Origin: Algoriphagus lutimaris
GTDB lineage: Bacteria; Bacteroidota; Bacteroidia; Cytophagales; Cyclobacteriaceae
NCBI RefSeq assembly: GCF_017051705.1
Contig: NZ_JAFIDJ010000001.1
Span: 2,447,786 to 2,511,785, forward strand
DNA: 64,000 nucleotides
Direction: 5' to 3'
The notes under the pieces were generated by a model. That model was given only the letters and a program-made list of their open reading frames with translations. It was not told where the DNA came from and did no database searches. The translations under genes and the position numbers were made by a program. Shown here in pieces: positions 27,107-53,529 of this stretch. Every line of letters begins with the position of its first letter. The first letter of the stretch is position 1.

Positions 27107-27115
27107 GTTACCTGC
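27107..27115 (+). other. left boundary of the NTPase cassette (GTTACCTGC)
   Basis: GTTACCTGC follows a short hairpin and lies 64 bp before the NTPase start. Its exact reverse complement GCAGGTAAC is found 9 bp after the NTPase stop (30964-30972). This terminal pairing is what integron cassettes show between their 5' end and the R'' box of attC. Confidence 0.55.
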
Positions 27116-27178
27116 AAGGTTAAAAGAACATCCAACATCAATTGAAAATTTTAAACTAAAAAAACTAATCTACATAAT

Positions 27179-30100
27179 ATGATTGAAGCCATTTTAGTAA
27201 GCATCGCTGCAAATATTGTGACAGGTCTTGGTCAGAAAACTCTGAAGCGAATTATTAAAAATGATAGTCTTGAAGCTGAAATAGAAAAAGCTTTTAACGA
27301 AGCTTTGGATAAATGGACTGTTAATTATGGCATTAAGGAAAAGGAAAAAATATTTACAAGTAGAAGGTTTGATACATTAATTGATTGTATAAAAGAACCT
27401 GAAAAAATTCACGATTTGGATAAAAGTACATCCGATATTATTGAATATTTCAAACAAGAACTACAAAAAAGCACAACAGCATGGAATTATATTCAAGATG
27501 TTCAGTTTCAAGAGGCTCTTAATAGATTCAATTTAATTGAACATCACCTTAATGGATTAAAGAAAGAGCTTCTCGCACAATTAGAGCATATAGAAAAACA
27601 ATTTGATGATGCCCTTTTATCGTACAAAGATGCTTTTAGTCAGCTTCTAAATCCTGAAAATAAAGACTTGCCGAATCAGTTTCAGAACACGTTTATTGGT
27701 CGAGAATCTGATTTAGAAAGTATTGACTACCTATTAAAAGTGTCTGATTACAAAGTAATTTCTATAATATCTGACGGAGGATATGGAAAAACAAGGTTGT
27801 GTATTGAATATTTTCAGAAATACGTTGATACAGATGAAAACATTGATGCATGGGTACTAAATACAACCGCATTTAAAAATCTAAATCTTTCATCCAAGCT
27901 GAAAGAAGGGAATCAAACAATAATACTAATTGATGACGCGCACAAGTATCCCAAAATTTTAAATGATGTAGTAAATATTACTAATCGAAATAGCAATGTA
28001 AAAATACTGATGACAGTTAGAAATGCATTGTACGATGTTACCGTTTCAGAGTTTGCATCACATAACAGAAATATAGCCTCTCATTCAATTGAAAGACTTT
28101 CATATGAAGAAACACAAGAACTTTTTAAATCACAATTACCTTGGTTAGGTGGTGTTGAGATTAAAAGACTTGCACAACATTCCAAAGGTATTCCTATCGT
28201 CATTCTAGGTCTATGTCAAGTTACGATTAATGGAAAATATAAGTCGGAAATATCGGAGGAAGAAAACTTTAGACTATTTGTACAAGAGCAAAAACAACAA
28301 GTAATCAATGATATTAATGCTAAATATTTTATCGACAAAGGCAATGTCAATAAAACGATTGAACTATTAAGTTTCTTTGCACCAATAAAAAACACAGATG
28401 AAGAAATTACACAAATCTCTAGTCTAAATGGCATTAATGTAGATGAATCAGCCTTAATATTAGACTATCTAGAAAAGTATGGGTTTATTGTAAGAAACAA
28501 TGAAATTGTTATAACACCAGACCCATATAGTGATACGATTTTATTAGATTCTTCACCAAGAATAAAATACTTACTTCAGTCCGAAATTTCTGTATTCCTT
28601 GATAGACTAATTCGAAATTTAATTGAGGTAGAAAAATCTGAACGCCTTACTATAAATATTGATAATCTGCTTTCAGATTTCATTTCATCATTTAAAAATA
28701 AAAGTACTGAATCTACTAGTGACATCTCAAGTTTAGTTTCAAATCTGGAAACTCTAAAATCATTCACTTATAAGAAACCTCGAATCTGCTTCTATGCAAT
28801 TAGAGACTTAATTGAATCCAAACTTAAAACGGAAGACTTTTGGCAAAATGAAGAAATGCATGTTTTGTATGAAAAGTCTTTCAAGGAGATACATGACAAT
28901 ATAGAAACTATATTATCAATTATTACTTTTAACACGCATGATTCACAAGAGCTTGAGGAGTTGTATGAATTAATATGGACATATAAAAATCACAAATCAG
29001 AAAGCTCCATTTTTGGAAAAGCGTTTGGGTATAAAGTATATGATTTCATTGAATATGGTTTCAGACAGAAATTTCCATTTCAAAGACAAAAATTTCTATT
29101 ATCAAAGCTCGATTCTCAACTCAAAGAAAAACCTGACAATGAGTTCATACATAATCACATTTTCGCTTGTGTAAAATTCCTAATGGTTGAAGATTTTGAA
29201 GGAGAATCTCATTATGACAAATACACTCATGCATTTTCATGGGCAAGACACCATGTTTACCAAAATGAACATACAGAAAAGATTAGATTAGATTCATTGA
29301 ATTTGTTATTTAGAATCTATGAATTAGTGCGCTATAAAGAACATTCCAAAAATTGTTTTGACAAAATTATCCATGTCCTTTATTTTATGTCTAAGACTTT
29401 ACAGGATAAAAATCATCTTGACCAGACTAAAGAAGTCGAAATAGTTTTAGATTTTTTACACACAATATTGGATAAAGATCCAAGTATAAAAGAACGCAGC
29501 AAAATTATACGACAACTAAAAATTTATGAGCGTAGAGAAATTAAGGAAGAGTATAAAGCACAAAGGGATGAACTACTTCTTAAATCCGAAAGTGTTGATA
29601 CTGTTAAAGAAAGACTTTCCTTATTATTTTTGGATGAGTATTTCTCATTGAAAAATAACATTGATTCTATTTTTAAGGAAATAATAGCCAAGTATAATGA
29701 CAATTTAAGTTTCTTCGAAGATATTATTGAAGTTAAGAGAGAACTTATTAATAATGATTATTCCAATTTTAATGAACTTCTTTCATACCTAATTGCGAAT
29801 CATCCCACCTTGTCTAAAGAATTACTGGATTTCGTTATTACGAATCATCCTGAACATGTTTGTGACTTTAGAACTCTTGTTAAAGCAAACTATAAAGACA
29901 ACGAATATTTTTACTTAATTATCAATAAAGTATGGAGTTTTGATTTCGAATGTTCAAAGGGCTCAGTACTATGGATGCTAACAAATGGTCGTAATAGAGA
30001 GGTTGAATACTATAGAGAAGATGATTTAAAATACTTTGAGGATGTTGTCAAAAACAAGTTAAGCAAACAACTTTGGAGTACATCTTTTTCTTTACCAAAG

Positions 30101-30955
30101 TACATTTTAATCAATCCTGAAAGAACATTAAATTTAATCACATCAATTTTTGAAATAAGTGAAAATGAAAGAGAAGATGGATACTTACTTCATTCAATCT
30201 TTGAAGACAAAGAAATAATTGAAAATAATACTGAACTAATTAAAACATTTGTCTTTAGTAGCACTCATCATTTTCCAATTGACTATCATTACCTAGGAGA
30301 AGTATTAAACTTTTTGGAGAATTATTTTGGTTTTGATACCCTTTTAAAGTATTTGATTGAAAAAATAAAATTCATCGAGAAAAGTCAAAAACCAATTTAT
30401 TTATCATACCACAAACGTTACACGAACCCAAACAAATCCTTAGAACAGACAGAAAAAGACTTTATACAAGTCATTAAATGGTATGCTGAATTAGAATCAA
30501 AATCTGATTATATCCATAAAGTACTGGTTGAATTCTTACGACCCGAAATTATTGAATCTGAGAGTTTCAAAACAAGTTTTAAAGAATTAGTTGAAAGTTC
30601 TGGAGATGATATTGACAAAGTGGTTGAATTGTGTAGAGCATTGGATGTTTTCGAAAATAAAGGAGAGTACTTAATTTCCCTACTGATAGAGGTGGCAAAC
30701 GAGATATGCAATAAATATAAAATTGACAATCAAAAGCTTATAACCATACTCGGAAGAGACTACATATTTAATAATGGGACAAAGTCGGGACCAGCGGGAG
30801 GACCTTTCCCTCAAGACTTAGCAAAAAAGAAAGAAATTAAAAGAATCCTCGGTAAATACGACATGCATCCAGATGTTAAGTCTATTTTTGACTATGCACT
30901 TAAAAATGTAAACGGAGATATTAAAAGAGATTTATTTAGAGATGAAAAATGGTAG
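27179..30955 (+). CDS. large STAND-type P-loop NTPase, probable defence or sensor protein
   Basis: 1258 residues, AT-rich. N-terminal about 180 residues are mostly helical with no domain I can name. A P-loop NTPase core follows: FIGRESDLESIDYLL, Walker A DGGYGKTR (about 200), Walker B TIILIDDAHKY (about 250) and the sensor-like MTVRNALYD. The remaining 750 residues are helical repeat-like. This three-part plan (effector-like N-terminus, NTPase, long repeat sensor) is that of STAND proteins such as bacterial antiphage NLR-like proteins. The effector chemistry is not recognisable. It is alone between two boundary elements of an integron-like cassette (27107 and 30964-31091). A defence role is inference. 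Confidence 0.72.
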   Translation: MIEAILVSIAANIVTGLGQKTLKRIIKNDSLEAEIEKAFNEALDKWTVNYGIKEKEKIFTSRRFDTLIDCIKEPEKIHDLDKSTSDIIEYFKQELQKSTTAWNYIQDVQFQEALNRFNLIEHHLNGLKKELLAQLEHIEKQFDDALLSYKDAFSQLLNPENKDLPNQFQNTFIGRESDLESIDYLLKVSDYKVISIISDGGYGKTRLCIEYFQKYVDTDENIDAWVLNTTAFKNLNLSSKLKEGNQTIILIDDAHKYPKILNDVVNITNRNSNVKILMTVRNALYDVTVSEFASHNRNIASHSIERLSYEETQELFKSQLPWLGGVEIKRLAQHSKGIPIVILGLCQVTINGKYKSEISEEENFRLFVQEQKQQVINDINAKYFIDKGNVNKTIELLSFFAPIKNTDEEITQISSLNGINVDESALILDYLEKYGFIVRNNEIVITPDPYSDTILLDSSPRIKYLLQSEISVFLDRLIRNLIEVEKSERLTINIDNLLSDFISSFKNKSTESTSDISSLVSNLETLKSFTYKKPRICFYAIRDLIESKLKTEDFWQNEEMHVLYEKSFKEIHDNIETILSIITFNTHDSQELEELYELIWTYKNHKSESSIFGKAFGYKVYDFIEYGFRQKFPFQRQKFLLSKLDSQLKEKPDNEFIHNHIFACVKFLMVEDFEGESHYDKYTHAFSWARHHVYQNEHTEKIRLDSLNLLFRIYELVRYKEHSKNCFDKIIHVLYFMSKTLQDKNHLDQTKEVEIVLDFLHTILDKDPSIKERSKIIRQLKIYERREIKEEYKAQRDELLLKSESVDTVKERLSLLFLDEYFSLKNNIDSIFKEIIAKYNDNLSFFEDIIEVKRELINNDYSNFNELLSYLIANHPTLSKELLDFVITNHPEHVCDFRTLVKANYKDNEYFYLIINKVWSFDFECSKGSVLWMLTNGRNREVEYYREDDLKYFEDVVKNKLSKQLWSTSFSLPKYILINPERTLNLITSIFEISENEREDGYLLHSIFEDKEIIENNTELIKTFVFSSTHHFPIDYHYLGEVLNFLENYFGFDTLLKYLIEKIKFIEKSQKPIYLSYHKRYTNPNKSLEQTEKDFIQVIKWYAELESKSDYIHKVLVEFLRPEIIESESFKTSFKELVESSGDDIDKVVELCRALDVFENKGEYLISLLIEVANEICNKYKIDNQKLITILGRDYIFNNGTKSGPAGGPFPQDLAKKKEIKRILGKYDMHPDVKSIFDYALKNVNGDIKRDLFRDEKW

Positions 30956-30963
30956 AAAACCCA

Positions 30964-31091
30964 GCAGGTAACACTTTGTATAAGTAATGGATGTAGCAAA
31001 CATCGAGGTTTGTAGCCCGCTCAAACTGCATTGCGGTTTGACAGGAAAGTACCACGCAGTCTGCCACTACTCATACAATTTACCGTTGCAT
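30964..31091 (+). other. attC-like site closing the NTPase cassette
   Basis: Starts with GCAGGTAAC (exact reverse complement of 27107-27115). TTGTAT (30976-30981) pairs with ATACAA (31073-31078), and AGTAATGG (30983-30990) pairs with CCACTACT (31064-31071) at 7 of 8. It ends ACC-GTTGCAT. Length 128 bp, an imperfect stem and terminal AAC...GTT cores all fit an attC fold. Confidence 0.58.
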
Positions 31092-31198
31092 TTAATAAAC
31101 GTCATGAAAATAACACATTAAACTACTTAACTAATGGATGTAAACTAATATCAGGATTTAAACATTAACCTGTAAACTTTTTTTAGGACGAGTCATAC
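31092..31198. other. short spacer between the NTPase cassette and the minisatellite
   Basis: AT-rich, no ORF or motif recognised. Confidence 0.4.
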
Positions 31199-31256
31199 CA
31201 CCTCCCCCCGGTGTCTACCCCCCCTCCCCCCGGGTATATACCCCCCAGGGGGGAGT
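31199..31256. repeat. C/G-run palindromic tract
   Basis: Runs of five to seven C interrupted by GG, TATATA and AGGGGGG, for example CCCCCCAGGGGGG and CCCGGGTATATACCC. Strikingly GC-rich inside AT-rich DNA and able to form strong hairpins or G-quadruplex-like structures on the minus strand. It directly abuts the 21-bp minisatellite. Confidence 0.75.
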
Positions 31257-31510
31257 AAAAAGAATCTCCCGAGATTCTTTTTATATCATCGGAGACTCTT
31301 TTTGTATCTCGGGAGACTCTTTTAATATCAACAGAGATTCTTTTTGTATCTCGCGAGATACTCTTAATATCAAGCGAGACTCTTTTCATATCTCGTGAGA
31401 TTCTCTTTGAATCAATCGAGACTCTTTTTGTATCTATTGAGATATTCTTTGTATCAACGAAGACTCTTTTTATCTCTCCCGAGACACCTTTTGCATCAAG
31501 AGAGATTCAT
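31257..31510. repeat. 21-bp tandem repeat (minisatellite), about 12 copies
   Basis: Units resemble GAGACTCTTTTTGTATCTCG, with alternate units containing ATCTCnnGAGAT palindromes. On the minus strand the frame reads as seven-residue units K-R-(V/I)-S-x-D-(I/T) without a stop from about 31507, but there is no ATG until 31389. Coding use is doubtful, as the predicted tail is Gly-rich and derived from the C/G tract. Confidence 0.8.
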
Positions 31511-31581
31511 TTTTAGATCTAAGGATTTACAAAAAATTTCCAGAAACGGGCTTTTGTAAGAAAAAGAAGAGGATATAATGA

Positions 31582-31620: not shown

Positions 31621-31658
31621 AGCGTTAAGTTTATATCTAGGGCTAATGCAACTTTACA

Positions 31659-32141
31659 TTAAGCGGCTTGCGAACTTTCTTCGCTGGAATTCTTATCGAA
31701 TCGTTTCTTAAGATCCTCATAGATTCCTTTGGCACCTGGCGCATTCATTCTAGCTGCATATTTTACGGTGTTGTAATAACTCAAGGCTCCATCAAAACTT
31801 TCGGATCCAGCCAACATCAATGTGTCACTGAGGTTATCATTAAATAAATTAGCTGAATTTAATATGGGGCCCAATCCTTTTACTGCTCCCCAGTCTTTTT
31901 TTAATTCTTCCACAGGAAGATAAGGAGGCAAAAATTGAGGTTCAGAGTCAACATAATCCATGACCTTTTCTACAAAAGGCCTGGAACCATCCGACATTTT
32001 CAAAAGATCCTTCCGCTGCGTCGGAGTCAGCGCGATTAAATAAGGGGCTAAAAGTTCCCTTGCTTCATTTAATTTACCCAGAGCATCCGCTAATACAGCT
32101 TCTGGGATTTCGATTGAATTACGATTTTCTATCGCCATCAT
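31659..32141 (-). CDS. hypothetical protein, helical, soluble
   Basis: 160 residues, no signal peptide or membrane helix. It begins MMAIENRNSIEIPEAVLADA. The middle contains ALTPTQRKDLLKMSDGSRPF and YVDSEPQFLPPYLPVEELKK; the end is Ser/Ala-rich. I recognise it as a conserved type of Bacteroidota hypothetical but can give no function. It is the only minus-strand gene between 24.5 and 53.5 kb and has a strong terminator, so it is probably a monocistronic resident gene between mobile cassettes. Confidence 0.72.
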   Translation of the reverse strand: MMAIENRNSIEIPEAVLADALGKLNEARELLAPYLIALTPTQRKDLLKMSDGSRPFVEKVMDYVDSEPQFLPPYLPVEELKKDWGAVKGLGPILNSANLFNDNLSDTLMLAGSESFDGALSYYNTVKYAARMNAPGAKGIYEDLKKRFDKNSSEESSQAA

Positions 32142-32449
32142 AAAAGTATTTAGGTAAATGATAAAAACTAACTAAAAGTAATTTAATAGATTATTTTCAT
32201 AAAAATAAATTCTTAGGTCACTAAAATTAAAGTTCGTTACTTCCAGCATAATCCCCACTTTCAAATCCAAGTGACATCCCCTCCGCTATTTCTCACCTTT
32301 GACCCTAAAACCGGAAGCAGCCACTAAGCAGGAATTCCCCAAAATCCTTAAATTGTTGGAAACAAGCCAAACAACCTAGCCATCGACAGCCTACAAGCCG
32401 GTAGTAGATTCATTCATAGATGTACCGCTGGCTGTCTCAACCTTCGCCC
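32142..32449. other. spacer before the first DUF6090 gene
   Basis: About 300 bp without an ORF I trust. It should hold divergent promoters for the genes at 32141 and 32450. None of the long repeat modules seen further right is present here. Confidence 0.4.
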
Positions 32450-33208
32450 ATGATAAACTTTTTTCAAAAAATCCGACAACAATTGCTTTCAAATGGAAAC
32501 ACCGGGAAATACCTGAAATATGCCTTGGGTGAAATTGTGCTAGTAATGATAGGGATTCTGCTGGCGCTACAGGTGAATAATTGGAATCAGGATCGACTCA
32601 ATCAGCAACTGAAGCAATCATACATAGAAAACTTATTGGTGGATCTGCAAAAGGATATTTCCTCCATCGAAGAACAAAAGGAGATCAATACTTATACAGA
32701 ACAAGAGGGGCAATACTTGGAAGCGTTTTTGGGCCAGCAACTCACGGAGATAGATACTTTCCGACTTACACGCTCACTTATCATGACGGCATTCATTCCC
32801 AACGCCACCATTACCAACTCCACCTATAATGACCTGATCAATAGCAACCATTTTCACTTATTTCAAGATGCCCAGTTAAAAAGGCTGTTGGACGACTATT
32901 ACATCCCTAATAATTGGGCAGTGCTATTTAATGAACGAATTCTTCAAACTGCCTGGTTTGATTACCGGGATGAAATGGTTAAATTCCATAGCCCGCTTTT
33001 GTATCGGGATTTTTATGAGTTGGACGATCCCGTGGAACTGAGTTATTCTCCAACATACCAGATCGATTGGAAAGGCATCCAGCAGAATGCGTATTTAAAA
33101 ACTCAAGTGGGGATGATTGTGGCCTATAGACAGCAAATTCGAAAATTCCAGGAAGATCTACTTCAAAAAGCTCAGAAAGTAGTGGAGTATTTGGATCAAG
33201 AAAATTAA
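32450..33208 (+). CDS. DUF6090 family membrane protein, copy 1 of 6
   Basis: 252 residues from the ATG at 32450. The frame opens 10 codons earlier at 32420, but the family always starts MIxFFxKIR. Residues 1-20 are basic (MINFFQKIRQQLL), residues about 25-45 form one membrane helix (GEIVLVMIGILLALQVNNWN), and the rest is a helical extracytoplasmic domain with the family motif around STYNDLINSNHFHLFQ. Function unknown. This copy lacks the conserved upstream repeat module of later copies, so it may be the oldest or a boundary copy. Confidence 0.85.
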   Translation: MINFFQKIRQQLLSNGNTGKYLKYALGEIVLVMIGILLALQVNNWNQDRLNQQLKQSYIENLLVDLQKDISSIEEQKEINTYTEQEGQYLEAFLGQQLTEIDTFRLTRSLIMTAFIPNATITNSTYNDLINSNHFHLFQDAQLKRLLDDYYIPNNWAVLFNERILQTAWFDYRDEMVKFHSPLLYRDFYELDDPVELSYSPTYQIDWKGIQQNAYLKTQVGMIVAYRQQIRKFQEDLLQKAQKVVEYLDQEN

Positions 33209-34514: not shown

Positions 34515-35297
34515 ATGATTAATTTCTTTAGAAAAATTCGCTATCGGCTTATGGAGCATCAGTTAATCGGGAAGTATATGAAGTATGCGGTCGGGGAAAT
34601 TATCCTGGTGGTGATCGGTATCCTGATCGCTTTCCAGTTGAATGAATGGAACGATCATCGCAAACAGGTAAAATTAGAACAGGAATATTATTGCCGGTTA
34701 CTGGATGATGTCCGGTTGGATGAGAAACAAACACAAATTTTGTTAGAGCAAGCCGAAGAGCGTCTGGTAGCATCCAATCATGCTGTCCGATTACTCTTGG
34801 AAGACAACTCGGAAAAAATTGAAATTGCTTCTCAGATAACGCGCTCCACCAAAGCTGTATTCTCTGATTTTAAGCCAAATAATTCGGCTTTTGACGATTT
34901 AAAATCTGGAGCTAATCTCAATATCATCAGCGATAAACTCATCATCAAGGCGCTAAACCGTTATTTCAATAGGTTTGAAGAGCTAAAGAGTATCATCATG
35001 GTAAATGGGAAGCATGCGGTAGATATTTTGTTTGCGCATGAGGATTACTTTGCAAATGGTGCTGTCCAAGCCTCTATTAGAGAGGGGAGATTCAAAGATG
35101 GGCTGGATGAAGACTTGAAAGAAGCTATTCTGGTCCTTGACGATGATATTCTTACATCCCAAATGAGAAGGAGATTACTCAATGAATCCTTAGAGTTTGT
35201 AAGCGTGAACACCCGGCAAATCGAACTTTATCAATTGCTACTTCAGGAAACCAACGCCTTGAAAGTGCAATTAGAAGTAAAATGTGCAGCGCAATAA
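34515..35297 (+). CDS. DUF6090 family membrane protein, copy 2 of 6
   Basis: 260 residues. The conserved head is MINFFRKIRYRLMEHQLIGK, then KYAVGEIILVVIGILIAFQL (membrane helix, about 28-46) and NEWNDH. The extracytoplasmic part is helical and charged, with SAFDDLKSGANLNIISDK matching the family's central motif. It has two Cys residues near the start of the outer domain and near the C-terminus, unlike the other copies. Function unknown. Confidence 0.87.
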   Translation: MINFFRKIRYRLMEHQLIGKYMKYAVGEIILVVIGILIAFQLNEWNDHRKQVKLEQEYYCRLLDDVRLDEKQTQILLEQAEERLVASNHAVRLLLEDNSEKIEIASQITRSTKAVFSDFKPNNSAFDDLKSGANLNIISDKLIIKALNRYFNRFEELKSIIMVNGKHAVDILFAHEDYFANGAVQASIREGRFKDGLDEDLKEAILVLDDDILTSQMRRRLLNESLEFVSVNTRQIELYQLLLQETNALKVQLEVKCAAQ

Positions 35298-37353: not shown

Positions 37354-38085
37354 ATGATAAAATTCTTCAGGAAAATTAGGCAAAACTTGCTGGAAAAGGG
37401 TCAGACTGGAAAGTACCTAAAATATGCGCTTGGGGAGATCGTACTTGTTGTTATTGGAATCTTAATAGCACTTCAGATCAACAATGCGAATGAAAGCTTA
37501 AAGCAAAAACGCAAAGCTAAAAACTACGAAAAGACTTTAATTACTGAACTTAACGCTGATTTGATGAGGATCAATCAGTTAGATACCTTATGTCAGAAAA
37601 TGCAAAAAGACATCAATGATTACCTCTCCTATTTCAAAAATCCGGATAAGGAATATAATGTAGTCATTCAAGAAATGGAAAAGGTGAACTATTACGGTGA
37701 TTTCTACCAAAGTATTGCCTATACCATCGATGATATTATTAATACGGGCAACCTAGAGCTATTTAACAAAGAGATCAAAAATGCCATTTTAGAATATAAA
37801 GCCACGCAGGATTTTTATGAAAAAAACAGAGATGAAGTGGTACAAAAATATGTTTTGAGTGATCTTGAATTTGAAAATGCGGTAGATATACTTTCATTTA
37901 GCGATCTCCCATCTGATAAATCTAAAAACCTGAATGACTGGCTATTTGATTTCAAATCAGAACAATACAAATTGTTCAATAATCGAGCGCTTTCTATTTT
38001 ACGGACTTACTATTTCCGGTCCGACCAAAACAATAAAATGAGACTTAGCATTGAAAACCTGCTAACAGAATTGGAAAAAGATTAA
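37354..38085 (+). CDS. DUF6090 family membrane protein, copy 3 of 6
   Basis: 243 residues. Head MIKFFRKIRQNLLEKGQTGK, membrane helix in GEIVLVVIGILIALQINNAN (about 30-48), then a helical outer domain with TIDDIINTGNLELFNKEIKN in the family's central position. The leader GTTGTGCTTCATTTTACCAA starting 30 bp upstream is almost the same as in copies 4, 5 and 6. A short hairpin with AAC...GTT ends follows the stop (38099-38149). Function unknown. Confidence 0.88.
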   Translation: MIKFFRKIRQNLLEKGQTGKYLKYALGEIVLVVIGILIALQINNANESLKQKRKAKNYEKTLITELNADLMRINQLDTLCQKMQKDINDYLSYFKNPDKEYNVVIQEMEKVNYYGDFYQSIAYTIDDIINTGNLELFNKEIKNAILEYKATQDFYEKNRDEVVQKYVLSDLEFENAVDILSFSDLPSDKSKNLNDWLFDFKSEQYKLFNNRALSILRTYYFRSDQNNKMRLSIENLLTELEKD

Positions 38086-38565: not shown

Positions 38566-38882
38566 GAAGCAGATAATACATATAAACTAGCTTCAATACG
38601 ATAGAATGACCCTTGCGGTGAAACTCCCAAATTGACCACTGACCACTGACCACTGACCACTGAAAACTAATTCAGGATACTACAAACCTAGCAATAGCTC
38701 TTTTTCATTCATTATGTGGAAGTTATAAACCTGGTGATCAAAATCTTTAGGGAATTGTAAAGATGGAATCCAATGAAATCCATAATTTGGGTGAAACAGC
38801 GACACCCATATGGACATTGCAGATATATTCGCAATGGAATATTGTAGTTACGTATATACATGTGTTGGAAAAATAGACAAAT
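38566..38882. repeat. repeat-bearing spacer with GACCACT array and terminal hairpin
   Basis: Perfect 7-bp GACCACT array at 38633-38664, then the TGAAAACTAATTCAGGATAC element, a copy of the R5-type module (about 38712-38780), and a hairpin (about 38840-38866, GATATATTCGC...GTATATACATGTGTTGG) ending 16 bp before the next gene. No ORF. Confidence 0.65.
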
Positions 38883-40004: not shown

Positions 40005-40563
40005 TAGCAATATCGTCCTGCTGGACATTACTGTTCATAGACAGACCGTCATTGAAAACCCTTTGAAGAGTTCCTGCTTACCGTTCTTATTTGTGAACGG
40101 AAAGGACATCCTTCAAAGGGTTTTATGTTTTACATCAGCCTTCGTCTCCGCTCAACCTGATAGTTTTACTTTGATATTTCGAAAGAAGATTTCTCAGTTC
40201 TCGAATAATCAGGGCTGGCAATTCCTCCTTCGAAATGACCTAATCACTATAGCGCCAACCTACCTCCGGCAGGCAAGCTGATCACTGATCACTGACCACT
40301 GACCACTGACCACTGACCACTGACCACTGAAAACTAATTCAGTATACTACAAACCTTTCAAAAATTCTTTTTCATCAAATGGGAGGAGATCATAAATCTT
40401 GTTATCATAAACTTTTGGGATAGGATAAAGATAGATTTCAATGAAATCCTTATATTAAATAAGGCACTTCACCTACTTGTGGATAATTGTGATATATACG
40501 CAATAGATTTTTGGAGTTGTGTATATACAAGTGTTGTGCTTCATTATGACCAACCAATAACCA
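40005..40563. repeat. long repeat-bearing spacer
   Basis: No ORF. In order: CCCTTTGAAGAGTTCC...GTGAACGG (about 40057-40100), the TTTCTCAGTTCTCGAATAAT element (40190-40245), a GACCACT array (40279-40328), the ACTAATTCAGTATACTACAA element, the R5-type module (40378-40455), and the terminal hairpin 40470-40539. Confidence 0.7.
40470..40539 (+). other. hairpin with GTGTT end in front of DUF6090 copy 4
   Basis: ACTTGT...TATATAC pairs with GTATATA...ACAAGT, the two arms separated by about 25 bp, and the element ends GTGTTGTGC. The same hairpin with small changes precedes most single genes of the array (for example 43080-43149, 49878-49953, 51207-51282). GTTGTGC (40533-40539) is the exact complement of GCACAAC at 41454-41460 after the gene. 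Confidence 0.6.
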
Positions 40564-41397
40564 ATGATTAAATTTTTTAGAAAAATTCGTCAAAACTTAC
40601 TAATGGAAAACAAAACTGGAAAGTATTTAAAATATGCTGTCGGTGAGATCTTACTCGTAATGGTCGGCATATTATTGGCTCTACAAGTAAACAATTGGAA
40701 TGAAAAACAAAAGAATGTTAAACTCGAAGTACATTATCTTAATAGACTTTTGAAAGATTTAGAACTGGACCTTGAGGATCTTGGCACAGTAATTATTTCA
40801 AATACAGTTAACTTAGTTTTGGCTGAAGACGCCTTATTAAAATTAGGTGCGGATACTACAATTTTGAGGCGTGATGCCCCTTCCGAGATTGCACATAAAG
40901 AAGCTACAATTATTGATCAATCAGTTATTTACTCAGGTTCAATTATTACGGACTACTCATTTCGCTTGGAGTCATTTGGCCACCAATTAACCCGACTTTT
41001 GCAGACTAGAGGATTTGATCTAACCCAAACGACAATTAATGACCTCCTATCCACGGGTAAGATTGAAGTAATCAGAAATAAAAATTTAAGACAAAAAATT
41101 CAATCGTACTATGCTGTGATGCAAAGTAACATTGGAAATGAGGAAGATTTGATTAATCGACACAGATACTACCTCCAGAGTGTTTTAAACGACGCTGGGA
41201 TTCCACCTTGGAGTAAATTGACCCTGGAAGAAGTAAAGGATATTACTGGAGTAGATAAAAGTCTTAAAACAGCCTTATATAATATTTATGAGGGCACTCA
41301 TATATCACTCAGAATCAACTACACAAATGATGGCTCGCTTTTTAAAAAAATACAACAATTGAAGAAAGAAATTAACGCTGAATTGGACTTATTATAG
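40564..41397 (+). CDS. DUF6090 family membrane protein, copy 4 of 6
   Basis: 277 residues, the longest copy. Head MIKFFRKIRQNLLMENKTGK, membrane helix VGEILLVMVGILLALQVNNW (about 29-47). The outer domain has an extra segment (RRDAPSEIAHKEATIIDQSV) before the central motif TTINDLLSTGKIEVIRNKNL. Both boundaries are well defined: TTGTGCTTCATTATGACC begins 30 bp upstream and GCACAAC plus a hairpin with an extrahelical A lie 57-118 bp downstream. Function unknown. Confidence 0.88.
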   Translation: MIKFFRKIRQNLLMENKTGKYLKYAVGEILLVMVGILLALQVNNWNEKQKNVKLEVHYLNRLLKDLELDLEDLGTVIISNTVNLVLAEDALLKLGADTTILRRDAPSEIAHKEATIIDQSVIYSGSIITDYSFRLESFGHQLTRLLQTRGFDLTQTTINDLLSTGKIEVIRNKNLRQKIQSYYAVMQSNIGNEEDLINRHRYYLQSVLNDAGIPPWSKLTLEEVKDITGVDKSLKTALYNIYEGTHISLRINYTNDGSLFKKIQQLKKEINAELDLL

Positions 41398-41453
41398 TTA
41401 CTTTAAGTATGGCAACTTAAATAATAAATTGAATAAATAAATAAATAACGAAA

Positions 41454-41521
41454 GCACAACAAAGCATAAAATGCTAATGGCTCCCATTCTGTCGCCACGC
41501 CATTTATGCGGGGCGTTTATC
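41454..41521 (+). other. attC-like site after DUF6090 copy 4
   Basis: GCACAAC (complement of the cassette's own first bases, GTTGTGC at 40533), then GCATAAA(A)TG pairing with CATTTATGC with one extrahelical A, inner TGGC/GCCA, closing GGGCGTTTATC. About 68 bp. Extrahelical bases and R''/R' complementarity are both integron attC hallmarks. Confidence 0.58.
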
Positions 41522-42067
41522 CATTTTGAATAGATTTGATCAGGAGGGCAATTTTCTTTTGTTCTTACCTCGGGATTGTAACCTCGATATTTATCTGATT
41601 TCGAGGAGCACATCCCGAAGAGTGGATAGCCTAAATAAAAAACCTCCGATATCTTCTCGACTCCGGAGGTTTACATTTTTCGGATATATTACGTTACTAG
41701 AGATTTCTCAGTTCCCGATAATCGGAACTTGAAGTTCCTCCTTCGAAATGACCTAATCACTATAGCGCCAACCTACCTCCGGCAGCCAATCTGACCACTG
41801 ACCACTGACCACTGACCACTGACCACTGACCACTGAAAACTAATTCAGTATACTACAAACCTAGCAATAGTTCTTTTTCATTTATTGTGTGGAAGTTATA
41901 AACCTGGTGATCAAAAACTTTAAGGTATGGTAGAGATGGAAGCCAATGAAATCCTTATTTTGGATTACCCAACACTGAACTAATACGGTTGAAGACCATG
42001 CAAATAGGTTTGCATAGGATATAGATTATTAGGTTTATACCCGTGTTGTCTAAAATTAATAAACGAT
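41522..42067. repeat. ORF-less repeat block N1
   Basis: Begins (from 41516) TTTATCCATTTTGAATAGAT, like the blocks at 43962, 50710 and 53244. In order: nested hairpin around ATTGTAACCTCGATATTTAT (41570-41625), terminator-like AACCTCCG/CGGAGGTT (41641-41671), TTTCTCAGTTCCCGATAATC element (about 41700), GACCACT array (41790-41837), R5-type module (41885-41962) and terminal hairpin to GTGTTGTC (41965-42050). No ORF. Confidence 0.68.
41637..41680. terminator. terminator-like hairpin AACCTCCG...CGGAGGTT
   Basis: Eight- or nine-bp stem with A- and T-rich flanks on both sides, so active in either direction. Related copies: 53348-53385 (good) and about 44087-44130 (decayed). Confidence 0.55.
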
Positions 42068-42877: not shown

Positions 42878-43174
42878 CCTGATTTCACCACTGCCAACCT
42901 CCCTCCGGCAAGCAAGCTGATCACTGTCCACTGATCACTTTGAACTCATTCAGTATCCTAAAAACCTTTCAAAAGTTATTTTTCATCAATTGGGAGGAGA
43001 TCAAAAGCTTTTTGATCAAAAAAATTTTAGGATTGGATAAAGATAAATTTCAATGAAATCCTTAAATTATTATAGTCGCTCCACCTTCTTGTGGATAATT
43101 GTGATATATACACAATAGATTTTCGGAGTTGTATATACAAGTGTTGTGCTTCATTATGACCAACCACTGAGCAT
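42878..43174. repeat. repeat-bearing spacer with R5-type module and hairpin
   Basis: CTCCCTCCGGCAAGCAAGCTG-type element with short GATCACT repeats (42895-42945), R5-type module (about 43000-43068), terminal hairpin to GTGTTGTGC (43080-43149). No ORF. Confidence 0.68.
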
Positions 43175-43891
43175 ATGATAAAATTCTTTAAAAAGATTCG
43201 ACAAAGATTATTGACCGAAAATAAATTTAGTAAATACATCTTTTACGCGATAGGTGAAATTATTTTGGTTGTGGTTGGTATTCTAATAGCATTACAGGTT
43301 AATACCTGGAATGAATGGAGAAAGGACAGAAAACAAGAAAAAGAGATTTTAATCGACCTAAAACTGAACCTTGAAAATAACATAACCATTTTTAGAGCAA
43401 GAATAGATTATTTTAATTTTGGTCAAAAATCAGGTAAGATTATTATGGACGTGATTGATAATAAACTACCAAATCATGACTCACTGGGAATTTACTTTTT
43501 TAAGGCAACAGGAGGATATGGAGGAGCTGATGTAATTTCTTTCGTAGGCTATGAAGCATTTAGAAACAATGGATTTAGTCTTGTCGCTAATAAATCTTTA
43601 AAAGATGAGATATTGAAGTTGTTCGAAAACACTTATAGTCATTTAATTTCTATTGATGGAACATTTGTTCAACACAACTCATATCAAAGAGAGATTTTAG
43701 GGCAACTCTTCTATCAGAACGAAGATGATTCACTTATGCCTTATGACTATGATATGATTCTGAAATCTCAAACATACTATTCTTCGCTGACTGATTTCTA
43801 TCACAATTATGGATGGATGAAAGAGGAAACAAACAAAGGATTATCAGAAACTCGTAGAGTGCTAAAACTAATAAATGAAGAATTAGAATAA
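43175..43891 (+). CDS. DUF6090 family membrane protein, copy 5 of 6
   Basis: 238 residues. Head MIKFFKKIRQRLLTENKFSK, membrane helix IGEIILVVVGILIALQVNTW (about 29-47). The outer-domain motif GYEAFRNNGFSLVANKSLKD with EILKLFENTYSHL is closely matched by copy 6 (GYEMLKISGFDLLQSKSLKK), so copies 5 and 6 form a subgroup. Boundaries: TTGTGC leader at 43144 and an attC-like site at 43900-43967. Function unknown. Confidence 0.88.
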   Translation: MIKFFKKIRQRLLTENKFSKYIFYAIGEIILVVVGILIALQVNTWNEWRKDRKQEKEILIDLKLNLENNITIFRARIDYFNFGQKSGKIIMDVIDNKLPNHDSLGIYFFKATGGYGGADVISFVGYEAFRNNGFSLVANKSLKDEILKLFENTYSHLISIDGTFVQHNSYQREILGQLFYQNEDDSLMPYDYDMILKSQTYYSSLTDFYHNYGWMKEETNKGLSETRRVLKLINEELE

Positions 43892-43899
43892 AAACGAAC

Positions 43900-43967
43900 C
43901 ACCAACAGTGCATAAAATGTTCATTGCGAGCAAAAGCTCGCAACGCCATTTATGCTAACCGTTGTAT
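43900..43967 (+). other. attC-like site after DUF6090 copy 5
   Basis: CACCAAC, then GCATAAAATG (43910-43919) pairing with CATTTATGC (43947-43955) with one extra A, a perfect inner 8-bp stem TTGCGAGC/GCTCGCAA, and the end CCGTTGTAT. The expected complement of the cassette's first bases would be GCACAAC; CACCAAC differs by an insertion and an end base. Confidence 0.5.
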
Positions 43968-44548
43968 CCAATTTGAATAGCTTTGATAAAGAAGGTAATA
44001 TTCCTTTTAATAATACTTCGGGATTGCAACCGCGATATTTTTCGGGTCCCGAAGAGCACATCCCGAAGAGTAGATAACCAAAATAAAAAAAACTCTGAAA
44101 TCTTCCTGACTCAGGAGGTTTATATCTTTCAGCTTTTGTGCATTGCACAAGAGATTTCTCAGTTCCCAAATAACCGGGGCTGGCAGTTCCCCCTTCGAAA
44201 TGACCCAATCACCATATTGTCAACCTCCCTCAGGCAAGCAAGCTGATCACTGTCCACTGATCACTTTGAACTCATTCAGTATCCTACAAACCTTTCAAAA
44301 GTTATTTTTCATCAATTGGGAGGAGCTTATAACTCTTGTGATCAAAAAATTTTGGGCAAGGATAAAGATGGAAGTCGCTGAAAATCTTATTTTTATAAAA
44401 AGCACCATACCAACTCGTGGCTAATTGGGGTGTATTCGCTAAAGCATATTGGTGTCACATAAGTACAAGTGTTGGCAGCAATCAGGATAGTTCGATAACA
44501 ATAGCAAAACGATAAAAAGATTTTTAAAAATATTAGAGGCTTTAAAGG
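43962..44548. repeat. ORF-less repeat block N2
   Basis: Begins TTGTATCCAATTTGAATAG. Contains the nested hairpin CTTCGGGAT/ATCCCGAAG around ATTGCAACCGCGATATTTTT (44017-44072), a decayed terminator-like copy (44087-44130), the TTTCTCAGTTCCCAAATAAC element (about 44155-44210), short GATCACT repeats, the R5-type module (44320-44396) and a terminal hairpin whose end is GTGTTGGCAGC (44469-44479). No ORF. Confidence 0.68.
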
Positions 44549-48732: not shown

Positions 48733-49168
48733 TAGAACTACAGCTACCAGTGTATTTAAGTACATGCAGGTTCGGGGCTATATTGAAATATGAAAACTTA
48801 ATTCAAAGGGCAGCATTCACTGATAAGTTGAGGAGTTAAAACCCAGGATTACATATAAAAGAACCCTCCTTTAAAAACTTTCAGTAGCTCCTTTCTTTAG
48901 ATCTATTTCATAGACGAAAAGGAGATTTTAAATCTTGTGATCAAAAACCTTTTGGAATAGGATAGAGATGAAACCCGCCGAAATCCCTATTTTGTTTACC
49001 ACAACACTGAATTAATACTTATAAAAACCTTGCGGAAATTTACCAAAAGGGTATAGATTATTGAGTTTAAACAAGTGTTGTACTTATCACGGGGCAAGTC
49101 ATTTTTAGCGAGAAAATCAGGAAAACCAATACGTTAATATAATTTAATAATCAACTAACTATAAAATC
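48733..49168. repeat. repeat-bearing spacer with R5-type module and hairpin
   Basis: CAGCTACCAGTGTATTTAAG after the stop (possible degenerate attC left arm), an R5-type module (about 48920-48995), then the hairpin 49002-49083 in which ACAACACT pairs with AGTGTTGT. The next gene starts 92 bp after GTTGTAC. No ORF. Confidence 0.62.
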
Positions 49169-49576: not shown

Positions 49577-49969
49577 GATTGATTAAGGCTACTGCCTAGA
49601 AATTTTATATTAACAATAGCTCAATATTGTATAACCGTAATTATTTCGGGTTCGACTATGTCCGAATCCACATGGAGTTGCTATGGTCTGTGCCTGACAG
49701 ATAAGCCGTATCTTAAAACCCGTAACTGACGGTTACACAATCCGCCCTAAAAAATCCTTCGAGCCCCCAGCACCCCTTTATTTATCGAGGGCTAAAAAGG
49801 AGATCATCAGCCTTGTGATCAAAAAAATTAAGGGTAGGAAAAAGATAGAAGTCACTGAAATCCTTAATTTTATACGAAGCACTGCTCCTATCTTGTGGAT
49901 AATTGTGATATAAACGCAATTGATTTTTGGAGTTTCTTATACAAGTGCTACCTATCACCAATCTTAACT
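49577..49969. repeat. degenerate attC-like site and R5-type module
   Basis: AACAATAGCTCAATATTGTATAACCG...CGTAACTGACGGTTACAC (about 49612-49745) is a decayed relative of the intact site at 52234-52369. It is followed by a CCTTCGAG segment, an R5-type module (49797-49870) and a terminal hairpin to GTGCTACC (49878-49953). No ORF. Confidence 0.6.
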
Positions 49970-50689
49970 ATGAAAAAAATCCTTCTTGCATTTATCTTTT
50001 TTACCTGTTGCTATTCATCAAAACTTTCTGCTCAAAATGGAATAGATTCCACGTTATTAAAAGAATTAGAGCGAATGTTTGAAATTGATCAGTTAGCAGC
50101 ATCTAAGTCCAGAAGCTCTTCGAGTTTATCGACTACTGAGTGGGCTGACAGTGTTTACCAGGCTCATCAAATATTTCTTGAAAATACTCTTAATAAGTTT
50201 GGCTATCCTGGTTATGACAAGTTGGGTAAAAGAGGCTCTAATCTTTATTGGGTGATGGTTCAACATTCTGATTTTGATACAAATTTTCAGAAACGAGTTC
50301 TCGATTCGTTGTATCAAGAAGTACAGATTAACAATGCTGACCCTGTTAACTATGCCTATTTATTGGATAGAATTAAGATGAACTTGGGTGAAAAGTTGGT
50401 TTATGGCACGCAAGTAACTTATCATTGGTTTACAGGAAAAGCTCGCATTAGGCCTACAATTGACCCTGAAAATCTAAATAGTAGAAGAGCTGAGATTGGT
50501 CTAGAACCAATTGAAGTATATCTGGAAGAAATGAACGAGGTAAATAATTTACAGGGCAACTCAATTATAGGCGGAATAACAAATTTGGGGTTATTGTTGA
50601 TAATCACCTTAATAGTAATATCAACTTTAGTTGTACTCTTACTTTTTAAAAGGAAAAGAGCAATAGATAAAAAACCTAAACTGAATTAA
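49970..50689 (+). CDS. DUF6624-type exported protein with C-terminal membrane anchor
   Basis: 239 residues from the ATG at 49970; the frame opens 25 codons earlier inside the boundary hairpin, but the later ATG gives a clean signal peptide (MKKILLAFIFFTCCYSSKLS). The body has the DUF6624 pattern: MFEIDQLAAS, KFGYPGYDKLGKRGSNLYW, VMVQHSDFD, YAYLLDRIKMNLGEKLVYGT. A C-terminal helix (LGLLLIITLIVISTLVVLLL) followed by KRKRAIDKK anchors it. Function unknown. Confidence 0.8.
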   Translation: MKKILLAFIFFTCCYSSKLSAQNGIDSTLLKELERMFEIDQLAASKSRSSSSLSTTEWADSVYQAHQIFLENTLNKFGYPGYDKLGKRGSNLYWVMVQHSDFDTNFQKRVLDSLYQEVQINNADPVNYAYLLDRIKMNLGEKLVYGTQVTYHWFTGKARIRPTIDPENLNSRRAEIGLEPIEVYLEEMNEVNNLQGNSIIGGITNLGLLLIITLIVISTLVVLLLFKRKRAIDKKPKLN

Positions 50690-51296
50690 TACGCAGTTTA
50701 GCCAAACCGCTGTATCCAATTTGAATAGATTTAATCAGGAAAGTTATATTCTTTTTGATCATACTTTGGGGTTACATCCGCTATCAGATCCCGAAGAGCG
50801 GTTAATTGGTCTTTGATATTTTGAAAGAGATTTCTCAGTTGTTCCTCCTTCGAAATGACCTTTCTACTACTCTGCATGATGATCACAGATCATTGCCCCT
50901 AATTACTGCAACTGCCTACTTGTTTCAGATTCAGCTATTATGAATTGCCAAAGAGATTTATCAGTTCACGAATAATCGGGATCGGCAGTTCCTTCTTCGA
51001 AATTACCTGATCACTATTCTGCAAGCTGATCACTGATCACTGACCACTGACCACTGACCACTGACCACTGAAAACTAATTCAGTATCCTGCAAACCTTTC
51101 AAAAGTTATTTTTCATCAATTGGAAGGAGATTATAAATCTTGTGCTCAAAAACTTTTGGGATAGGGTAGAGATGAAAGTCACTGAAAACCTTAATTTTAT
51201 AACAAGGACTCCACCTACTTGTGGATAATTGCGATTTATACGCAATAGATTTTTGGAGCAGCGTATGTACAAGTGTTTCCACACATTTAAAAAAAG
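50690..51296. repeat. ORF-less repeat block N3
   Basis: Starts after AAACC-GCTGTATCCAATTTG (50709). Shortened ACATCCGCTATC element (about 50765-50800), two copies of the TTTCTCAGTT/TTTATCAGTT element (50827 and 50955), a GACCACT array (51018-51070), the ACTAATTCAGTATCCTGCAA element, an R5-type module (51120-51195) and the terminal hairpin 51207-51284 ending GTGTTTCCACAC. No ORF. Confidence 0.68.
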
Positions 51297-52226
51297 ATGA
51301 TGACAAGAAAAGTATACTTCACAATATTTGTTTTGATTGTGTCCTGTAATTTGACTTTTGGACAATGGCCAATGTCAAACGACCCTGAATTTAACTCTGA
51401 AGTAAAAGAGCCAACTTATAAAAAGGGGAAAGGACCAAAAATACTCTTAGATGGTGCTCACCATAACTTTTTTATTCAATGGGATTTTATAAAACCTTTC
51501 TCTGACCTGGCAAAAGCTGATGGATACCAAACAATAGTAGATAGTTCAAAATTTACACCTGAATATTTAAAACGCTTTGACGTTGTAATGATTATTACGT
51601 CTCTTCCATTCAACTTCACCACTAAAAATCAGGTAACAGATGAATCTACGTTCTCTAAAGACGAGATAAATAGCTTGTATGATTGGGTTAACAACGGTGG
51701 TTCACTTTTAGTTTTTAGTGAACATGCACCATTTGACCAAGCAATCAACCCACTTCTAAATCAGTTTGGAATTGAGTCGAGTATTGGAACAACAATTGAC
51801 AGTTTGAACTATAACAAAGAAATTGGAAGAACAGGATGGATAGAATTTACCAAGGATAATGGACTTCTAAATATTGAACATCCAATAGTTAAAGGGAGAA
51901 CACCGTCGAATCAAGTTAATCGCTTGCTGACATTTGGAGGTAGTGGACTTAATGGAAAGAATTATACCAACCTGTTAAGGTTGTCTGAATCATCAGAAAA
52001 CGTAGTTCATAGTACAGGAGTTGGGCCAATTGGAAAAGGTAATTCACAGGCTTTGGCAGGAAATGTCGGTAAAGGAAAAGTAGTTGCTCTTGGAGATTCG
52101 AACGGATTTACAGCAATGGTTTTTGACCAAAATGATGGAACAAAACAAAAAGCTGGTATGAATTTAGAAAATTACGATTGGAAACAATTTGTATTGAATA
52201 CTTTATACTGGCTATCAACTGAATAA
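51297..52226 (+). CDS. exported DUF4350-like protein
   Basis: 309 residues with a signal peptide (VYFTIFVLIVSCNLTFGQWP). The body begins GKGPKILLDGAHHNFFIQWD and contains VVMIITSLPF, LYDWVNNGGSLLVFSEHAPF and GKGKVVALGDSNGFTA, a Rossmann/GATase1-like layout as in DUF4350 and the GldG-like ABC accessory proteins. The function is unknown. It is flanked by the best-defined cassette boundaries of the array (51275 and 52234-52369). Confidence 0.78.
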   Translation: MMTRKVYFTIFVLIVSCNLTFGQWPMSNDPEFNSEVKEPTYKKGKGPKILLDGAHHNFFIQWDFIKPFSDLAKADGYQTIVDSSKFTPEYLKRFDVVMIITSLPFNFTTKNQVTDESTFSKDEINSLYDWVNNGGSLLVFSEHAPFDQAINPLLNQFGIESSIGTTIDSLNYNKEIGRTGWIEFTKDNGLLNIEHPIVKGRTPSNQVNRLLTFGGSGLNGKNYTNLLRLSESSENVVHSTGVGPIGKGNSQALAGNVGKGKVVALGDSNGFTAMVFDQNDGTKQKAGMNLENYDWKQFVLNTLYWLSTE

Positions 52227-52233
52227 AAAAAAC

Positions 52234-52369
52234 GTGTGGTAACAATGTATAACCGCAATTACGGTGGATTCGACTACGTCCGAATCCACTAGGAATTGCT
52301 AAAGTCAGTGCCATACCGAAAATTACCGCATATTAACCCGTAACTGACAGTTATACGAGACCGTTAGGC
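52234..52369 (+). other. attC-like site closing the DUF4350 cassette
   Basis: R''-like GTGTGGTAAC (52234-52243) is the reverse complement of the cassette start GTTTCCACAC (51275-51284) at 9 of 10. Stems: GTATAAC/GTTATAC (7 bp, 52247-52253 with 52350-52356), TTACGG/CCGTAA (52259-52264 with 52338-52343), GTGGATTCG/CGAATCCAC (52264-52272 with 52281-52289). It ends GACC-GTTAGGC, which fits the canonical integron core GTTRRRY. 136 bp. Confidence 0.62.
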
Positions 52370-52392
52370 TTCATTATGACCTACCTTTAGCA

Positions 52393-53112
52393 ATGATAAA
52401 ATTGTTTAGAAATATTCGTCAAAATTTGCTTTCCGAGGGAAAAACTGGAAAGTATATGAAATACGCCATTGGAGAAATTATTTTGGTAGTTATTGGTATT
52501 TTGATTGCATTAGCGATAAACAATTGGAATGAGGCAAGAAAAAATAGGGTTAAAGAAAAAGACATTCTTTTTGAAATTGCAGAAACCCTAGAAGTTAATG
52601 CAAAAACACTCGATTCTAGTATTTTTTGGGGAAATAGATTTATTAAAGAGCGGCAAAACTATCTTAAATCAGTTAGGGAGAAAAAACCTTATAATGACAC
52701 AATGCAACAAGGTTTTCAACGTATGAATTTGGGATTTTCTCGTACAGCTCTTTCAAAATCTGGATATGAAATGCTAAAGATTAGTGGATTTGATTTATTA
52801 CAATCAAAGTCCTTAAAAAAAGAAATACTTAATTTATTTGAAGTTACTTATCCTAATTTAGAACTCAGAGAAAATGATAATCGCCTAAATATTATACTAG
52901 AAAATGTCCAATTATACTATTGGCAAAATTTCATGGATACAGACAGTGGCAAATTTCCTATTAATTATGAGCAGCTTTTAAATGATAACTACTTTTATGA
53001 ACTGATAAATGCTTATCTGGAAAGGGAGACTTTATTACGTAATTGGAAAACGGAAACCTTCGATGAAAATAACCGAGTTCTACAATTAATTAATGATGAA
53101 TTAAAAAATTAA
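52393..53112 (+). CDS. DUF6090 family membrane protein, copy 6 of 6
   Basis: 239 residues. Head MIKLFRNIRQNLLSEGKTGK, membrane helix AIGEIILVVIGILIALAINN (about 29-47), central motif GYEMLKISGFDLLQSKSLKK with EILNLFEVTYPNLE as in copy 5. It starts 30 bp after GTTAGGC and shares the leader CTTCATTATGACC with copies 4 and 5, although it follows a different type of boundary. Function unknown. Confidence 0.88.
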   Translation: MIKLFRNIRQNLLSEGKTGKYMKYAIGEIILVVIGILIALAINNWNEARKNRVKEKDILFEIAETLEVNAKTLDSSIFWGNRFIKERQNYLKSVREKKPYNDTMQQGFQRMNLGFSRTALSKSGYEMLKISGFDLLQSKSLKKEILNLFEVTYPNLELRENDNRLNIILENVQLYYWQNFMDTDSGKFPINYEQLLNDNYFYELINAYLERETLLRNWKTETFDENNRVLQLINDELKN

Positions 53113-53529
53113 CGAAAGCACAATACCGGCTATAATTCATTGCTTCTGACTTTCCTCGCTGAAAGTCCTTGCAAATTTGCTATCCTCAGTTTACGGTTGA
53201 AAATCCTTGCGGATTTTATCGCAGCGAAACCCTTGCCAAACCGCTGTATCCAATTTGAATAGATTTAATCAGGAAAGTTATATTCTTTTCATACTTTGGA
53301 ATTACAACCGCGATATTTATGGGGTCCCCAAAAGCGGGAAGTCTACATAAAAACCCTCCGAAATCTTCACGACTCCGGAGGTTTATATCTTTCAGCTATT
53401 GCGTATTACCTAAGAGATTTCTCAGTCCCCGATAATCGAGACTTGTAGTACCTCCTTCGAAATGGCCTGACTACTACGCAGCTTGCTGATCACTGAGACT
53501 GCCCACAGCGATTATCTAATTCAAATAAA
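53113..53529. repeat. ORF-less repeat block N4 (right end of the array)
   Basis: GCACAATACCGGCTATAATTC (53119 on), then imperfect inverted repeats with CCTTGC words, AAACC-GCTGTATCCAATTTG (53239 on), ACAACCGCGATATTTATG element (about 53305), terminator-like hairpin (53348-53385), TTTCTCAGTCCCCGATAATC element (about 53413) and a GATCACTGAG remnant. GCACAA is the complement expected for a cassette starting TTGTGC, but this gene's cassette starts TTAGGC. No ORF. Confidence 0.6.

Follow-up and report, generated by a model that had tools for sequence, protein, structure and literature searches.

We analysed a stretch of 64,000 nucleotides from the genome of Algoriphagus lutimaris (hereafter the window), in which an earlier note, written from the sequence alone, had proposed an integron-like array of gene cassettes, each a gene with a recombination site (attC), without an integrase in view. 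The run of mostly unrelated genes described there comprises 18 genes on the plus strand at 27.2-53.1 kb, with a single opposing gene (31659-32141), and is bounded by a gene which we take to be phosphoesterase-like (24940-26193) and by an ABC-F gene on the minus strand (53558-55237). Six of the 18 were assigned by Pfam to DUF6090 (32420, 34515, 37354, 40564, 43175 and 52393); these six (32420-53112) share their start region, and several open with GTTGTGCTTCATT. The first array gene (27179-30955) encodes a putative STAND-type NTPase, a call that comes solely from sub-threshold NB-ARC/nSTAND matches, and PADLOC gave no match for it. Scans of the window for Rfam families and tRNAs yielded no matches, and no integrase match was found in it.

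To locate attC-like sites we scanned the window, with filters off, using a covariance model (R1) trained on sites of other genomes only. The earlier note had tied its proposal to such a model doing better than chance, and the best of the three sites that scored (Table 1) reached 60.5 bits (E 3e-12), while nothing else across the 64 kb exceeded 10.3 bits. The imperfect AAC...GTT hairpins claimed behind several genes were thus recovered at three places, but most genes at 32-50 kb have no site above chance. A cassette that was once a circle closed at its own core would have first bases matching the reverse complement of its own R'', the bases opening its downstream hairpin. Counting at least 6 of 7 bases beyond GTT as a match, we found this signature, which the earlier note had pointed out, in 4 of the 18 window genes (27179, 40564, 49169 and 51297) vs 2 of 306 foreign pairs (Fisher 9.5e-5). 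Both foreign matches were other DUF6090 genes paired with the R'' of the 40564 cassette, and the 49169 match, away from any spacer end, is probably due to chance. The cassettes at 27107-31087 and 51275-52365 appear well supported, and that at 40533-41517 is supported by its 10/10 match, the short hairpin at 41454 giving no R1 score; the remaining window genes are not individually supported as cassettes. For gene 43175, upstream of the site at 43898-43967, its own test failed (2/7). Furthermore, DNA related to the attC alone of the STAND cassette is present in other genomes of the genus: at the six loci read, the related stretch starts at AAC 30970 in four cases, stops at GTT 31087 or 31088 in four and extends to 31099 in two. 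In one genome (G070, locus L229) a homologue of the STAND gene with 67% DNA identity begins 240 nt after an attC match.

Table 1. Positions in the window of the array features, with the evidence for each (CDS, coding sequence; R1, attC model; R2, attI model).
Feature	Position	Strand	Evidence
attI-like site before first cassette (TATACGC...GCGTATACACAAAT|GTT)	27068-27109	+	Top window match of R2, 21.2 bits, E 0.053
Cassette with STAND-type NTPase gene	27107-31087 (CDS 27179-30955)	+	GTT to GTT; 5' end TGTTACCTGC vs R'' GCAGGTAACA, 10/10
attC-like site of STAND cassette	30964-31091	+	R1 60.5 bits, E 3.3e-12
DUF6090 gene	32420-33208	+	Pfam; no recombination site detected
DUF6090 gene	34515-35297	+	Pfam; no recombination site detected
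DUF6090 gene, GTGTTGTGCTTC-type start ahead	37354-38085	+	Pfam, sequence
attI-like spacer 3' end	38806-38868	+	Repeat family D14, alignment; no R2 score
attI-like spacer 3' end	40480-40535	+	R2 19.5 bits, E 0.12
DUF6090 cassette	40533-41517 (CDS 40564-41397)	+	TGTTGTGCTT vs AAGCACAACA, 10/10; short hairpin AACAAAGCATAAAATG...CATTTATGCGGGGCGTT
Noncoding spacer copy	41506-42042	+	Repeat families D5, D18; DNA search
attI-like spacer 3' end	43101-43145	+	R2 12.6 bits, E 3.4, weak
DUF6090 gene	43175-43891	+	Pfam
attC-like site after DUF6090 gene	43898-43967	+	R1 14.2 bits, E 0.37; simple finder score 12
Noncoding spacer copy, search query	43953-44480	+	Repeat analysis, DNA search
attI-like spacer 3' end	51222-51277	+	R2 10.8 bits, E 8.5, weak
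Cassette	51275-52365 (CDS 51297-52226)	+	GTTTCCACAC vs GTGTGGTAAC, 6/7 beyond GTT
attC-like site, core GTTAGGC, next cassette directly behind	52235-52369	+	R1 22.3 bits, E 0.0042
DUF6090 cassette, joined without spacer	52363-53243 (CDS 52393-53112)	+	Pfam, sequence; 5'/R'' match not found
Last spacer copy, without attI-like end, adjoining ABC-F gene	53235-53500	+	Repeat families D10, D18, D19

The strongest match to an integron-integrase profile in the A. lutimaris genome shares a contig with the array and lies about 0.8 Mb away from it (G000:C1:1668675-1670036, 453 amino acids). An attI-like site follows this integrase, and within 20 kb downstream there are five R1 matches, the best of 89.9 bits; the first stretch after the attI-like site, about 8.1 kb from GTTGTGTGCC (L008:15071) to the 89.9-bit attC with R'' GGCACACAAC, carries type I restriction-modification genes. 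The earlier note had suggested looking for a tyrosine recombinase near other copies. Among named genomes we examined the best 80 of 589 candidates for related integrases, where all 67 R1 matches (E up to 0.05; 25 loci) lay downstream of the integrase, 65 of them on its strand and the other two being mirror images of plus-strand matches. The 25 attC-bearing loci all belong to Bacteroidota and include Arundinibacter roseus, Flavobacterium aciduliphilum, F. psychrophilum, Algoriphagus ornithinivorans and Algibacter onchidii. In the loci L114-L163, where 329,232 bases upstream and 183,614 downstream were searched, an attC match was present in 18 of the 26 with at least 1.5 kb downstream. A putative attI-like site was recognised by eye 33-106 nt after the stop codon in 13 of 16 integrase loci, as an inverted repeat, typically TATACGCAAC..GTTGCGTATA, and then CACAAAC|GTT, with the sequence beyond differing per genome; one of the 13 (G017) sits behind a broken integrase copy, and 11 were close enough for a model (R2).

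Some further sites were noted. In the A. lutimaris genome a degenerate C-terminal remnant of a second integrase (L008:9708-9975) has an attI-like site of its own behind it, scored by R2 at 42.9 bits, and then genes that we presume, by name, to be CPBP-protease-like and serine-hydrolase-like. Elsewhere in this genome, solitary attC-like sites of 26.5-67.6 bits lie at C8:664408, C8:679782, C8:1051807 and C30:143122. A 2.7 kb segment downstream of the integrases of L073 and L144 is 79% identical between the window's genus and F. aciduliphilum.

A cassette of these arrays comprises one or more genes and its attC, an imperfect hairpin that is mostly about 124 nt long from AAC to GTT. A simple finder of AAC/GTT arms gave many chance matches and was superseded by the covariance model, for which 39 sites were picked from the matches of the finder and 23 used. 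In these 23, which come from integrase-linked arrays and have a conserved A/C mismatch at alignment columns 24/111, 85.4% of the cells were paired vs 58.2% in shuffled and 29-39% in slid alignments, and there were 119 double-changed cells vs 40.0 and a covariation of 0.597 vs 0.146 after shuffling. As the sites had been picked by a finder that rewards paired arms, these statistics are partly circular and the tests of position and of cassettes weigh more. In the cassette test, in which no criterion other than the model served to select neighbouring sites, the six bases after GTT were the exact reverse complement of the cassette's own R'' in 29 of 39 cases and of a foreign R'' in 16 of 1482 (p 2e-41; one of 40 possible pairs was dropped for want of a core). 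An earlier chain test of 31 steps (mean 5.0 of 6 vs 2.2 shuffled) was biased, since it retained just those steps with 4 or more matching bases or an arm score of at least 13. These data bear on the notion that we are dealing with mere transcription terminators or repeats and with a cassette signature produced by chance: some window hairpins indeed do not rise above chance, but the 29 exact matches, the one-sided position of attC relative to the integrase and the compensatory changes in the attC arms make it extremely improbable. It is contradicted for the integrase-linked arrays and is possible for single unscored hairpins of the window.

The integrase of A. lutimaris matches the integron profile TIGR02249 in two blocks, with profile positions 185-238 missing, and scores 219.8 bits, under the cut-off of 265; the archaeal XerA profile gives 210.9 bits and those of XerC and XerD far less. 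Its best solved relative is VchIntIA (2a3v, E 4e-39), of which chain residues 189-245 are skipped against 19 residues in the query. The stretch between the motifs KGxKDR and HxLRH measures 64-69 residues in the Bacteroidota members compared, 64-71 in relatives from other phyla and 106 in all four IntI with usable sequence, a shortfall of about 40 residues that takes in the region of the IntI-specific additional domain (I2). The tyrosine recombinase catalytic residues R304, K329, H398, R401 and H424 are invariant and Y433 nearly so (12 sequences), and the C-terminal SPLDKL is similar to the tail of IntI, a feature which we assume to mark these proteins. An AlphaFold2 model of an Aquiflexum relative (L114; mean predicted local distance difference test score 84.4, predicted template modelling score 0.56) seems to comprise two alpha/beta units at the N-terminus followed by a recombinase core, and the best structural matches of the core are XerA and VchIntIA. 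A stretch 69% identical to query residues 211-453 of the integrase described here is also encoded by a plasmid record of Acinetobacter baylyi (NZ_CP104735.1:1489-2202, 5.1 kb).

A tree of 57 rows, with four IntI (three plus IntI1) and two Xer proteins and leaving out 10 of 13 canonical IntI loci for want of a usable open frame (L195-L202, L204, L205), separated the family by a long branch from its own XerC and XerD. IntI grouped (support 98/91) with the long-branch integrase of a Prolixibacteraceae genome (L165), which has no insertion and four attC matches behind it, and in the approximately unbiased topology test the 39 Bacteroidota rows as one clade gave p 0.077, or 0.29 with IntI added. 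The relation of the family to Xer proteins could suggest Xer/dif-type modules mobilised by XerCD; however, long asymmetric hairpins make up the sites, and all of them lie behind a single kind of integrase, distinct from the genome's own XerC and XerD, and we regard this explanation as barely credible.

We then surveyed 396 genomes of Bacteroidia for the integrase (E up to 1e-60, which may take in relatives other than integron integrases) and for attC (E up to 1e-6), with Infernal scoring of 8 candidates per genome at most, so that per-genome attC counts are lower bounds. The integrase alignment matched in 217 genomes and attC in 282, with both in 194, the integrase only in 23, attC only in 88 and neither in 91, although related genomes do not count as independent; attC thus accompanied the integrase in 194 of 217 genomes. 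Canonical IntI passed its curated cut-off in 2 of the 396 genomes and in none of the A. lutimaris genome and four other sampled genomes of the genus; in a phylum sample it passed in 85 of 296, with just one matching genome in the class of the window. The array as a cluster of attC sites lacking an integrase (CALIN) of a classical IntI integron would agree with the general attC/attI layout and with IntI being the best solved relative of the integrase, but it is very unlikely in view of the rarity of IntI here, with no match over the cut-off in the own genome, of attC arms whose pairing register is displaced by about 4 nt, of the missing insertion in the integrase beside these sites and of the cores. 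The latter, which the earlier note had already described as mostly not GTTRRRY, read CGTT and then A or G in 61 of 62 attC sites of other genomes and GTTRRRY in two (of 64 sites, 2 lacked a core and were left out, and one of 65 plus-strand matches was not entered). The broader proposal of that note, a divergent Bacteroidota integron or CALIN, is borne out by the results with the attC model, by the presence of an integrase elsewhere in the genome, by the cassette signature in other genomes and by an exact C|GTT limit between sister genomes, with the qualification that just part of the 27-53 kb region is demonstrably cassettes and the usual CALIN spacing is not observed.

This limit was found at the integrase locus and not inside the window array, where the earlier note had expected precise breakpoints at GTT. 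The integron loci of A. lutimaris (G000) and the sister genome G018 have a common upstream flank, 96% identical, and downstream homology resumes exactly at CGTTAGCC (C|GTT) and continues for 36.7 kb at 91.5%. The arrays of about 17 and 15 kb between the integrase and this point have no common match longer than 150 nt at E 1e-10.

Many genes of the window array are separated by a noncoding spacer of about 500 nt, whose copies are about 60-92% alike (60% being the floor of the tool). With one copy (43953-44480) as the query, all 12 matches in the own genome lay inside the window and none outside (40 of 48 candidates scored), and spacer DNA had no match in plasmids. Four copies (repeat family D18) start near TTGTATCCAATTTGAATAG, and many end in a hairpin before GTGTT. 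Such a hairpin, claimed in the earlier note for the gene at 27.2 kb and for each gene from 38.8 kb on, is present before several, ending in or near GTGTT at 27109 and at 38.86, 40.53, 42.04, 43.14, 44.47, 49.08 and 51.27 kb, mostly at spacer 3' ends, but not before all of them, 45384 and 47605 lacking a clear one. R2 gave eight window matches at E up to 10, four of them outside the attI-like sites of Table 1, and the top site (27068-27109) has the layout of those directly after integrase stop codons. The repeated spacers with attI-like ends may represent several landing sites in a hot spot of the window's lineage. A 34-residue integrase remnant (65% identity) in the same hot spot of another genome (G022) hints that an integrase once sat there. 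Beside the STAND cassette, noncoding tandem GAGACTCTTTTT-like units with a 21-nt step occupy 31222-31512, and a stretch of about 50-60 nt at 31139-31199 is repeated in many genomes of the genus, often near contig ends, as mobile repeat DNA would be.

The order of the genes 37354/38206, 45384 and 42068, which G018 shares, is different there, with limits that fall inside spacers and are not exactly placeable, and homologous recombination between spacers is an equally possible source of this order. Across the genus the interval between the two genes flanking the array ranges from about 0.1 to 37 kb. These observations, together with the likeness of the spacer copies and the many window genes without a scoring attC, would fit a hot spot mainly reshuffled by homologous recombination, in which a few integron cassettes landed and whose array as a whole would not be the work of the integrase. 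We consider this rather unlikely, albeit by far the most serious competitor, because the spacer ends coincide with attI-like sites and with the GTT at which the cassettes at 40533 and 51275 start, as does the attI-like site at 27107 with the start of its cassette.

Taken together, we interpret the array in the window, with a probability of roughly 0.85, as a partly decayed cassette array without an integrase, belonging to a Bacteroidota integron system whose tyrosine recombinase lacks the IntI-specific insertion. Its anatomy, the cassette signature and the turnover limit can be read from the sequence itself, and from these we infer recombination by the integrase. The integrase would join attI to folded attC and would excise and insert cassette circles; the window array might be a side array whose own integrase was lost or never existed, possibly served in trans from about 0.8 Mb away. 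The attI-like spacer ends would then be several landing sites, scrambled later by homologous recombination between spacers. Moreover, we think it fairly likely that the Bacteroidia harbour a second, class-wide integron family with integrase, attI, attC and circular cassettes, whose integrase never had or lost I2, which occurs in about half of the genomes and was overlooked as searches require I2, and in which the hot spot of the window's lineage multiplied attI-like landing sites.

Several observations weigh against this interpretation. No recombination was observed, and the case for it is drawn from sequence comparison. In the window just three attC sites score, one at E 0.4, most genes have no scoring site, and the attI-like matches are weak (E 0.05-8.5); we know of no counterpart of the spacer repeats in integrons. 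Few such attC are present in the hot-spot intervals of relatives, where 32 loci gave four matches at E up to 1, including one at E 0.26. The left limit between G000 and G018 lies at the integrase gene and not at attI, and is made indistinct by the divergence of the two integrases (65% amino-acid identity), and a weak R1 match (23.3 bits) lies upstream of the own-genome integrase, after the integrase remnant. No clear attI-like site was seen at three of the 16 inspected integrases (G054, G009, G039), and among 27 named loci R2 found sites in just two. Of five pairing measures, two were weak (double-change pairs 15 vs 13.5, further pair types 36 vs 30.5). An attC match was missing from 55 of the best 80 loci, including 28 of the 30 most distant ones (L164-L193), mostly outside Bacteroidota, from 8 of the 26 L114-L163 loci with at least 1.5 kb downstream, and from 23 of 217 integrase-positive genomes, and was present in 88 of 179 integrase-negative ones. 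In addition, the distant relatives compared also have no insertion, so its absence alone is no mark of an integron integrase.

If this interpretation is true, integrons can also be built without I2 while showing the complete cassette signature, the origin of integrons from Xer-like recombinases becomes testable, and a dominant environmental phylum holds a large unmapped store of mobile cassettes. No description of such a system was found in the literature consulted, which consisted mostly of titles and abstract openings, with few subscription papers and no preprints. We filed the system as one that works like an integron but is not a classical integron, because the IntI domain was absent on testing and the core consensus differs. 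With classical integrons it has in common attI beside the integrase, cassettes made of a gene and an attC, AAC...GTT cores, a tyrosine recombinase with VchIntIA as its best solved relative, an R'' that matches the 5' end of its own cassette, and array turnover at GTT. It differs in the short stretch without the I2 region, in the core CGTTRKSN instead of GTTRRRY with shifted arms, in the N-terminal extension of two alpha/beta units in some members, and in an integrase that points the same way as its cassettes. The last feature is known from reverse-orientation integrons such as that of Treponema denticola, whose type of integrase, unlike the one described here, carries the IntI-specific domain.

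I2 has been described as a domain seen nowhere else that lets integron integrases accommodate the extrahelical bases of folded attC (PMC4792948), integron searches call integrases by an IntI-specific profile (PMC9668308), and the one complete integron that IntegronFinder 2.0 names within Bacteroidetes proper is that of Salinibacter ruber (PMC9024848). An "integron-like" subgroup of simple tyrosine recombinases was defined in a study that called the insertion essential for integron function (PMC8138268) and in whose available parts no attC arrays are described for members without it. With a CALIN the window shares an array without an integrase in cis; however, a CALIN is defined by two or more attC sites spaced by less than 4 kb, with no integrase nearby (PMC9668308), whereas the scoring sites of the window (30964, 43898 and 52235) are 8-13 kb apart with repeated spacers between them. 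Finally, the archaeal and Xer tyrosine recombinases (XerA 5hxy, XerC/D) have the same fold and catalytic core, XerA also approaching the integron profile in score, but the family described here is linked to attI/attC arrays and is set apart from its own XerC and XerD by a long branch.

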